The translations under genes were made by a program, and so were the position numbers. This document shows positions 18,227 to 48,775 of a DNA stretch of 64,000 nucleotides, in pieces (positions within the stretch are counted from its first letter, which is position 1; every line of letters begins with the position of its first letter). Location: contig WHTV01000009.1 in NCBI GenBank assembly GCA_009377535.1, positions 1 to 64,000 on the forward strand, written 5' to 3'. A model generated the notes under the pieces. The model was given only the letters and a program-made list of their open reading frames with translations. It was not told the DNA's origin and did not search any database. The DNA is from Kiloniellaceae bacterium. GTDB taxonomy: Bacteria > Pseudomonadota > Alphaproteobacteria > Kiloniellales > Kiloniellaceae.

Positions 18227-22795
<4,569 letters not shown>

Positions 22796-22816: not shown

Positions 22817-24259
22817 CTACTCGGCGGCCACGGCGGTAGCTTCCGCCTTGGCCTGGATGTAGGTGTGGATCTGCTCCGCCGCATCGCGGCCGTCGCGTAT
22901 CGCCCAGACCACCAGCGAGGCGCCGCGCACGATGTCTCCGGCCGCGAAGACGCCGTCCAGCGCGGTCATCTTGGTCCTGAAATCCGTCAGCACAGTGCCC
23001 CAGCGGGTGACCTCCAGTCCCTCGGTGTCGAAGAGCTTCGGCAGATCCTCAGGATCGAAACCCAGCGCCTTGATCACCATGTCGGCCTCCAGCGTGAAGT
23101 GGGAGTCCTCGATGATCTGCGGCGTCTGCCGGCCGGTGGCATCGGGCATGCCGAGGTGGACGCGCTGGGCGCGCACCGCCTGCACGGTCTCGTCGCCGAG
23201 GAAAGCCTCCGGCGCCGACAGCCAGACGAATTCGACTCCCTCCTCCTCGGCGTTGGCGACCTCGCGCTGCGAGCCCGGCATGTTCTTGCGGTCGCGGCGG
23301 TAGAGGCAGCGCACCGCCGTGGCACCCTGGCGCACCGCCGTGCGCACGCAATCCATGGCAGTGTCGCCGCCGCCAATCACCACCACCGCCTTGCCGTTGG
23401 CGTCCAGCGTGCCGTCGTCGAATTGCGGCACGGTGTCGCCGAGGCCCTTGCGGTTGGACGCGGTGAGAAAGTCCATCGCCGGGAAGATGTTGCCGAGGCC
23501 GCAACCGGGCACCTTCATGTCGCGCGCCTTGTACACGCCGGTGGCAAGAAGGACGGCGTCATGGCGCGCCCGCAGCGCCGCGAAGCTCTCGGTGCCGCCG
23601 ACGTCGCAGTTGAGGTGGTACTGGACGCCGCCGCGCGCCAGCAGGTCGGCGCGGCGCTCGACCACCTCCTTCTCCAGCTTGAAGTTGGGAATACCGTAGA
23701 TCATCAGGCCGCCGACGCGGTCGTAGCGGTCGTAGACATGCACCTGATAGCCCTTGCGGCGCAGTTCTTCGGCAGCAGCCAGGCCGCCCGGCCCGGCACC
23801 TATGACGCCGACGGACTGCGGGCGTTCGCGCACCGGCTTGACCGGCTGCACCCAACCCTCCTCCCAGGCGGTATCGGTGATGTACTTCTCGACCGAGCCG
23901 ATGGTGACGGTGCCGTGGCCGGCCTGCTCGATCACGCAGTTACCTTCGCAGAGCCGGTCCTGCGGACAGATGCGCCCGCAGATCTCGGGGAAGTTGTTGG
24001 TCGACTGGGAAAGCTCGTAGGCTTCGCGCAGGCGCCCCTCGGCGGTCAGCATAAGCCAGTCGGGGATGTTGTTGTGCACCGGGCAATGCACCTGGCAGAA
24101 GGGCACGCCGCACTGCGAGCAGCGCGCGGACTGGTCGGCCGCTGCCTTGGAATCATACTCGTCATAGATCTCGCCGAAATCGTGGCGGCGCAGCTCGGCG
24201 CTGCGCTTTTCCGGCATGGCGCGCCCGAGCTTGACGAACTTCAACATCTTGCTGGCCAT
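22817..24259 (-). CDS. gltD: Glutamate synthase (NADPH), small subunit
   Basis: 480 residues from ATG 24259 (MASKMLKFVKLGRAMPEKR), the family start; a 39-residue in-frame extension upstream is not conserved. N-terminal [4Fe-4S] cysteines in CSQCGVPFCQVHCP and CGRICPQDRLCEGNC, FAD motif GAGPGGLAAAEE, NADPH motif GGGDTAMDC and the C-terminal FAD contact GDIVRGASLVVWAIRDGRDAAE. It passes electrons from NADPH to GltB. First gene of gltDB, divergent from uppP across 342 nt that contain a palindrome likely to be regulatory. Confidence 0.97.
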   Translation of the reverse strand: MASKMLKFVKLGRAMPEKRSAELRRHDFGEIYDEYDSKAAADQSARCSQCGVPFCQVHCPVHNNIPDWLMLTAEGRLREAYELSQSTNNFPEICGRICPQDRLCEGNCVIEQAGHGTVTIGSVEKYITDTAWEEGWVQPVKPVRERPQSVGVIGAGPGGLAAAEELRRKGYQVHVYDRYDRVGGLMIYGIPNFKLEKEVVERRADLLARGGVQYHLNCDVGGTESFAALRARHDAVLLATGVYKARDMKVPGCGLGNIFPAMDFLTASNRKGLGDTVPQFDDGTLDANGKAVVVIGGGDTAMDCVRTAVRQGATAVRCLYRRDRKNMPGSQREVANAEEEGVEFVWLSAPEAFLGDETVQAVRAQRVHLGMPDATGRQTPQIIEDSHFTLEADMVIKALGFDPEDLPKLFDTEGLEVTRWGTVLTDFRTKMTALDGVFAAGDIVRGASLVVWAIRDGRDAAEQIHTYIQAKAEATAVAAE

Positions 24260-24418
24260 AGGCTCGATTCCCGAAATCTTTCCGATCGGTTCCGCGCCTC
24301 GGCTGGGCCGGGAGCGGTTGCTCTGGTAGTGGCTCCCTGCCGCCAGGAGGCGGCGCAAGGCCGCCGCCGGGCGCACGTCTATAGACGAAGAACCCGCAGC
24401 CTGCCAGGGAAACCATGG

Positions 24419-24445
24419 ATATAGGTCAGAATGTATGACCTATAT
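24419..24445. promoter_or_regulatory. Palindromic operator candidate upstream of gltD
   Basis: A perfect inverted repeat with 10-bp arms ATATAGGTCA and TGACCTATAT around a 7-bp spacer. It sits about 160 bp upstream of the gltD start and just below a -35-like TTGATA on the minus strand, so a bound protein would cover the likely gltD -10 or start site. The regulator is not identifiable from sequence. Confidence 0.55.
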
Positions 24446-24536
24446 GTTTCTGGATTGGCGCCAGACTATCAAAAGCGGCAGCATTCTGCGAGGGGTTTCC
24501 GTCCAACTAGTCCCGTTATGGTATTAAATTGCGACG

Positions 24537-24564
24537 TGGACTGTTAACCTTGAGGTGCTATAAG
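24537..24564 (+). promoter_or_regulatory. Promoter candidate for uppP
   Basis: TGGACT (24537-24542, four of six matches to TTGACA), a 16-nt spacer and TATAAG (24559-24564), about 38 nt before the uppP start. Confidence 0.4.
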
Positions 24565-24601
24565 CCGCCGTCGCTGGCCACATCCGCCCTGGAACCGCTC
24601 C

Positions 24602-25432
24602 TTGCCGCTCTTGCACATCGTCATCCTGGCCGTCGTCCAGGGCATTACCGAATTCCTGCCCATTTCGTCCTCCGGCCACCTCGTGCTGGCTTGGGAAGCC
24701 TTTGATGCCGTCGGCATGACCGCCATCCAACAGGCCAAGAACGATCGCCTGACCCTCGACATCGCCGTGCACGTCGGCACCCTGGCGGCGGTCTGCGCCT
24801 ATGCCTGGCGGGACCTCGGCCAAATGGCCGGCGGCGTCGGCCGGCTCGCGGTCGGCCGCTGGACGCCCGGCGCGCGCCTCGCCGCGCTGCTGGTGGTCGG
24901 CTCGCTGCCGCTGGTCATGGTCGGCGTGCTGTTCAAGGAGGCCGTGACCAGCCATCTGCGCGACATCGAGGTGGTCGCCTGGGCGACCATCGGATTCGGC
25001 GTCGTGCTCTATATCGCCGACCGCAGCACCCTGACCCTCAGGCGCGTCGAACACATGACCTTCGCCGCCGGCTTCGTCATCGGGCTGGCGCAGATCCTGG
25101 CGCTGATCCCCGGCACCAGTCGCTCCGGCATCACCATGACGGCGGGCCGCTTCCTCGGCTTCGAGCGGGTCGAGGCGGCGCGCTTCTCCCTGCTGCTGGC
25201 GATCCCGGCGATCATCGGGGCGGGCAGCCTGGCCGGCTACGACCTCTACCAGAGCGGCAACGTCACGCTCGGCCACGAGGCCATGGTCGGCGCCGCGCTG
25301 GCCTTCGTGGTGGCGCTGGTTTCCATCATGCTGATGATCGGCTGGCTGCGCCGAGCGTCCTTCACGCCCTTCGTGGTCTACCGCATCCTGCTGGGCATGG
25401 CGCTGCTGTGGTGGGTCCACGGCGGCGCCTGA
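24602..25432 (+). CDS. uppP: Undecaprenyl-diphosphatase (UppP/BacA)
   Basis: 276 residues with about eight membrane helices. The catalytic motifs are both present: QGITEFLPISSSGHL (residues 13-27, with Glu17, the serines and His27) and PGTSRSG in the second half. The enzyme dephosphorylates undecaprenyl diphosphate so the carrier can be reused for peptidoglycan and LPS O-antigen synthesis; its activity gives bacitracin tolerance. The start is taken at TTG 24602; a second TTG at 24611 is possible and no strong ribosome-binding site decides. Divergent from gltD. Confidence 0.95.
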   Translation: MPLLHIVILAVVQGITEFLPISSSGHLVLAWEAFDAVGMTAIQQAKNDRLTLDIAVHVGTLAAVCAYAWRDLGQMAGGVGRLAVGRWTPGARLAALLVVGSLPLVMVGVLFKEAVTSHLRDIEVVAWATIGFGVVLYIADRSTLTLRRVEHMTFAAGFVIGLAQILALIPGTSRSGITMTAGRFLGFERVEAARFSLLLAIPAIIGAGSLAGYDLYQSGNVTLGHEAMVGAALAFVVALVSIMLMIGWLRRASFTPFVVYRILLGMALLWWVHGGA

Positions 25433-48722: not shown

Positions 48723-48775
48723 AGCCCGGATTTCTCAAACTATGGCGGAGCGTCATAGTTTGAGAAATCCGGGCT
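48723..48775. repeat. Dispersed palindromic element, complete copy
   Basis: Two perfect 22-bp arms (AGCCCGGATTTCTCAAACTATG and its reverse complement, described here as arms 48723-48744 and 48754-48775) around a 9-nt loop GCGGAGCGT. A half copy of one arm lies at 41362-41395, 7.3 kb away. It lies 24 nt downstream of ihfB and has no T tract, so it looks like a REP-type repeat rather than a plain terminator. Confidence 0.88.

Follow-up and report, generated by a model that had tools for sequence, protein, structure and literature searches.

The palindrome at 24419-24445 of the window, i.e. of the whole 64,000-nucleotide stretch of DNA that was analysed, is best explained as the operator through which a conserved MarR-family regulator would control gltDB. 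This regulator would be encoded elsewhere in the genome, beside ilvE, and would also act at its own gene and at the gene of an indolepyruvate ferredoxin oxidoreductase (ior); we assign to this reading a probability of about 0.8. Sites of the gltD type are common to many alphaproteobacteria and are probably bound by this conserved regulator, which would thereby control nitrogen and amino-acid metabolism. The site and the genes around it are the following.

24419-24445, no strand: candidate palindromic operator with 10-bp arms and a 7-bp spacer
22817-24259, minus strand: gltD, glutamate synthase small subunit, first gene of gltDB
18227-22795, minus strand: gltB, glutamate synthase large subunit, downstream of gltD
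24602-25432, plus strand: uppP (BacA family), divergent neighbour of gltD; Pfam BacA, E 4.6e-72

Direct reading of the window at 24419-24445 gave ATATAGGTCA GAATGTA TGACCTATAT, exactly the palindrome with 10-bp arms and an N7 spacer that had been described in the first-pass annotation. The operator core, TAGGTCA-N7-TGACCTA, occupies 24422-24442, with the centres of GTCA and TGAC 11 bp apart. When up to 3 mismatches to ATATAGGTCA-N7-TGACCTATAT were allowed, the 64-kb window contained a single match, the one at 24419-24445, and 100 shuffles of the window contained none. The window holds 26 perfect pairs of 10-bp arms separated by 0-20 bp (nested pairs being counted separately), compared to about 1.3 expected with equal bases. 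The shape is thus not rare, which would favour a chance palindrome or an RNA hairpin with no regulator involved, and the palindromic shape by itself was dropped as evidence. As 10-bp-arm palindromes are common in the window, the weight of the gltD site lies in its conservation. A separate inverted repeat, with arms of 22 bp and a loop of 9 bp, was seen at 48723-48775, about 23 bp past the stop codon of a short frame whose product resembles an IHF/HU-type protein; it has no run of T and is possibly a terminator or a repeat element.

The gltD and gltB products scored above the cut-offs of the NCBIfam models TIGR01318 and NF008730, respectively. With gltD starting at 24259 and uppP at 24602, the intergenic gap is 342 bp long, the length given before. 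Its earlier description as A/T-rich is correct for 24400-24560 (52% A+T) and incorrect for the gap overall (41%) and for 24260-24399 (31%).

Of 116 genomes, 83 gave a gltD match at E <= 1e-60, and the upstream regions (450 bp plus 61 bp of the gene) were taken from 82 of them, the partial gltD of G045 being dropped. The pattern TANGTCA-N7-TGACNTA was present within 2 mismatches in 68 of these 82 regions, compared to 1 of 82 for the reversed pattern and 11 of 1640 shuffles. The best match had 0 mismatches in 14 regions, 1 in 33, 2 in 21, 3 in 8, 4 in 4 and 5 in 2, and its distance to the gltD start ranged from about 77 to 401 bp across genomes. Related genomes are not independent, which is mended only partly by counting genera and families; half or more of the examined members carry the site in 42 of 53 genera and 25 of 33 families, against 1 and 0, respectively, for the reversed pattern. 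The first-pass annotation had proposed a regulatory operator upstream of gltDB and had tied this proposal to the conservation of the palindrome in front of the gltD of relatives; the 68 regions that carry the site do not refute it, and the operator proposal holds.

The least biased search used TAGGTCA-N7-TGACCTA, a pattern drawn from the gltD site alone. The genome of the window (4.43 Mb) has one exact place and, within 2 mismatches, only gltD (0 mismatches), ior (2) and marR (2), marR being the gene of the candidate regulator. At up to 3 mismatches there were 36 places against 66 for the reversed pattern, i.e. fewer than in the control, and the 3-mismatch places were left uninterpreted. Among the 116 related genomes the exact core was found in 8 (reversed pattern, 2), and all 8 places fall at the same three promoters.

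Exact core at gltD (5): G000, G027, G030, G037, G099
Exact core at marR (1): G074
Exact core at ior (2): G082, G092

The conservation of the site and the targets that share it are thus observed far above controls, and they make the chance or hairpin reading exceedingly improbable. A regulator dedicated to gltDB, as suggested previously, does not agree with the presence of like sites at the MarR-family gene and at ior. The first 481 residues of the ior frame of this genome match the NCBIfam indolepyruvate ferredoxin oxidoreductase family below its whole-protein cut-off, as expected of a fragment, and gave no Pfam family. The ior sites were examined in the 30 best loci of the 65 genomes with a match.

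The candidate marR gene lies at G000:C111:123536-124075, divergent from ilvE, the latter being named by an NCBIfam match above cut-off. Its product exhibits the Pfam domains MarR_2 (E 1.1e-15) and MarR (2.9e-08), both above cut-off; no NCBIfam model was reached at cut-off, and solved structures gave distant matches only (best E 1.3e-07). A marR match was present in 86 of the 116 genomes at E <= 1e-15, as a single copy in 85 of these. Upstream of marR, the TANGTCA-N7-TGACNTA site was found within 2 mismatches in 76 of 83 genomes, 65 of them with 0 mismatches, compared to 0 of 83 for the reversed pattern and 13 of 1660 shuffles; these counts leave out the marR of G107, two distant homologues of G092 and two loci with less than 200 bp upstream. 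The marR site usually spans the start codon, where the copy of the present genome also lies, and it half-overlaps the coding sequence in most genomes. Nevertheless, more than a coding sequence is conserved, since L068, L069, L070 and L080 keep the site although their start codon is 18-33 bp from its centre. The annotated marR of a Rhizobium leguminosarum plasmid is preceded by an exact site, at a distance of 60-70 bp. Beside marR on the R. leguminosarum plasmid pSK03 (L351, 3217-3627), a short unannotated frame resembles, by reading, part of IlvE, as would be left by a decay of ilvE with retention of marR and its site.

Among the six genomes with gltD and no marR match at E <= 1e-15, three have no gltD site, G057 (59% complete) has an exact one, and G044 and G052 have sites with 2 mismatches. 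In fourteen of the 82 gltD upstream regions the best match has at least 3 mismatches; 11 of the fourteen come from genomes with a marR match. A scoring matrix made from marR sites only, which ignores the spacer and whose best segment is not always the pattern match, ranked the best gltD segment above all 20 shuffles in 72 of 82 cases and the best ior segment in 22 of 30.

In named genomes, the best 80 marR loci gave a similar picture, with a site of 0 mismatches in 64 and of at most 2 in 76; the four others, with 4-5 mismatches, belong to Azospirillum (L316), Nitrospirillum (L341 and L342) and a MAG (L327). The closest MarR proteins among the matches listed come from Pelagibius marinus, at 93% identity over the best segment, and from P. 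litoralis, at 84%, so that the window probably belongs to Pelagibius or to a near relative. In these 80 loci ilvE is divergent from marR in 73 and a response-regulator gene is downstream of marR in 74; of the 12 class-level loci read, 10 also have an OmpR-type response-regulator gene near marR. This response regulator, which has a DNA-binding domain, could itself bind the palindrome and autoregulate the operon, MarR having another part. We consider this quite unlikely. OmpR-type regulators usually bind direct repeats, and exact sites occur beside marR at L290, L328 and G098, where no response regulator was found adjacent, although one could lie elsewhere in those genomes. In G072, where marR also has no response regulator next to it, the marR site has 3 mismatches.

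An unlinked regulator, for example of the LysR type, could bind all three sites, that of marR included. The LysR operator rule is T-N11-A, and the TCA-N7-TGA geometry of the site fits it, the rule being short enough to fit other dyads too. By reading, the divergent neighbour of ior is a LysR-type gene in L007 and a TetR-like gene in L008; L007 is the only case of a LysR-type neighbour of the site among the few contexts read. As these two ior neighbours differ from each other and the regulator gene that recurs at the site is marR (76 of 83), an unlinked binder is unlikely. Three points make MarR the best candidate for the binding protein: the copy of the site at its own gene is the most constant one; the exact marR sites of L290, L328 and G098 have no response regulator found adjacent; and all 12 MarR proteins compared, with 45-100% identity, have the segment (S/T)KQSLxRV in the presumed recognition helix. 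The argument from the shared helix is weak, since the one Sphingobium homologue read has the same segment without a site near its gene.

The upstream regions of marR hold further conserved elements on the ilvE side: TGTTAC at +23/+24 from the operator centre in 45 of the 76 genomes, and GTAAC at +55/+56 in 17 of 76. They could be promoter parts or the site of a second regulator, and no assignment of the marR and ilvE promoters from these elements was possible.

Upstream of gltD, the first-pass annotation had placed the site on the -10 or the transcription start; comparison of genomes instead revealed a conserved pair of promoter-like elements on the downstream side of the site.

24401-24406, minus strand: predicted gltD -35, TGGCAG, degenerate, with CT[CG]G conserved at +25 from the operator centre
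24378-24383, minus strand: predicted gltD -10, TATAGA, 17 bp after the -35

Outside the genus g3, CT[CG]G occurs at +25 in 31 of 60 gltD upstream regions and in at most 4 of 60 at the other offsets from +15 to +44, and TA.[AG] occurs at +49 in 31, at +50 in 8 and at +51 in 18 of the 60. The joint -35/-10 pattern with a 16-18 bp spacer was found in 29 of 60, seven of these 29 being from the genus of the window; the controls gave 0-2 of 60 in five other downstream intervals and 2, 0 and 8 of 60 in three upstream intervals. The two elements together resemble a promoter whose -35 is degenerate. Transcription of gltD would start near 24371, so that the operator centre would be near -61. A sigma-70 consensus scan of 24250-24640 returned one weak match, at 24547-24518 on the minus strand; it is upstream of the site and was not used as the gltD promoter.

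A position of about -61 from the transcription start is the usual one for an activator. Considering that the operator centre would be near -61 of a weak promoter, activation is the likeliest mode of control of gltDB here, and the predicted promoters suggest the same for roughly half of the relatives that were scored. The arrangement is different in g3 (probably Kiloniella), where the gltD operator lies between TTGACA at -18 and TACCTA at +5 in 8 of 8 cases, its right half-site deviating from the palindrome at the base that gives the first T of the -10. The ior promoters present the same layout as g3 gltD, with TTG at -18 in 22 of 24 and TA...[TA] at +5 in 24 of 24, the latter being partly forced by the half-site; 24 of the 30 ior loci were kept for this geometry and those with more than 3 mismatches were dropped. 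This geometry is observed directly, and repression is predicted because the operator is inside a consensus promoter, which suggests that gltDB is repressed in g3 and that ior would be repressed by the site between its -35 and -10. Autorepression of marR is predicted from the usual position of its site over the start codon.

The same promoter geometry bears on uppP, which could be the regulated gene in place of gltD, the site being located between the two. This is highly improbable: the conserved promoter-like pair adjoining the site points to gltD, and the site precedes gltB in G118 and in G069, in the latter as a second site. Moreover, no uppP match was found in the nine g3 genomes, whereas a gltD site with 1 mismatch is retained in all eight of those that have a gltD match. 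No evidence for uppP as a regulated gene was found.

From these sequences, we infer the binding protein, the sign of control and the effector of the proposed MarR system as follows. The regulator occurs in much of the class; its gene is divergent from ilvE and in most cases precedes that of the OmpR-type response regulator. A MarR dimer would bind sites resembling TA(G/T)GTCA-N7-TGAC(C/A)TA, whose GTCA half-sites would be one helical turn apart. Its three targets would be its own gene (autorepression), ior (repression) and gltDB; the latter would be activated here and repressed in g3, with the operator inside a consensus promoter, and in two genomes of another order gltB is the first gene behind the site. 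The effector may be an amino acid or a 2-oxoacid, a guess made from the target genes.

MarR-family autoregulators of the HpaR, MarR, OhrR and SlyA type share with this candidate the MarR/MarR_2 domains and a palindromic operator on their own gene. Here, in contrast, the targets are glutamate synthase, indolepyruvate ferredoxin oxidoreductase and the regulator's own operon beside ilvE, and the protein reaches no NCBIfam cut-off. The petP gene of Rhodobacter capsulatus encodes a MarR-type regulator and is next to a response-regulator gene, petR, like the pair described here. PetR is described as a response regulator for the bc1 genes and petR as upstream of fbcFBC (PMC9603854), whereas the neighbour here is ilvE; no link between PetP and gltBD appeared in the literature searched. 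MarR proteins generally repress, and some activate or do both, according to a review (PMC10458429).

Control of gltBD by NtrC has been predicted in some alphaproteobacteria (PMC5343134). The half-sites of NtrC differ from the palindrome here, and three simple NtrC-like or sigma-54-like patterns (a pattern search, without weight matrix) gave no match in 24201-24640. The literature searched, RegPrecise and most subscription papers being outside it, held no description of the motif or of a MarR regulator of gltBD, nor any regulator of glutamate synthase with such an operator. This MarR-type regulon is thus apparently undescribed, an earlier prediction being possible. The fuller proposal is more tentative, and we hold it slightly below even odds: an undescribed, class-wide and NtrC-independent MarR-type regulator of gltDB, ior and its own operon beside ilvE, whose sign would have switched in g3 (probably Kiloniella) by placement of the operator inside a consensus promoter as against upstream of a weak one. 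Glutamate synthase is one of the main entries of ammonium into amino acids, and a single conserved regulator with a seemingly small regulon (gltDB, ior, itself and possibly ilvE) would be directly testable. If true, g3 would offer a natural example of an operator that turns from activating to repressing by its position.

The extent of the regulon was assessed with TADGTCA-N7-TKACHTW, which gave 116 matches on both strands compared to 19 for the reversed pattern. Of 58 genomes, 45 contain it, and its 82 distinct places fall on the promoters of marR (26), ior (26) and gltD (21), with 9 elsewhere. As this pattern derives from the three kinds of site, its share at those promoters is partly built in; the telling figure is the 9 places elsewhere, about the chance level. 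Sites of marR whose free positions hold C or G, that of the present genome among them, escape the pattern. A brief reading of the nine non-target places and of places in G016 and G069 revealed no common function, the G069 one being that in front of gltB. A TANGTCA-N7-TGACNTA site is present in 38 of the 40 genomes of the order to which G069 belongs; 26 of the 30 loci returned hold both marR and an ilvE-like gene, and at L378 the site is upstream of gltB.

Two further kinds of operator-like site were seen. One, at 1501-1521 of L379 (G119), lies upstream of a gene that by reading is aminotransferase-like and is a possible extra target in the order of G069. The other is an additional site that five genomes have some 2.7 kb away from that of marR (L390, L400 and, by coordinates, G134, G147 and G150); in L390 and L400, the two loci read, it lies at 1501-1521, just past a sensor-kinase-like gene, and no promoter was recognised there.
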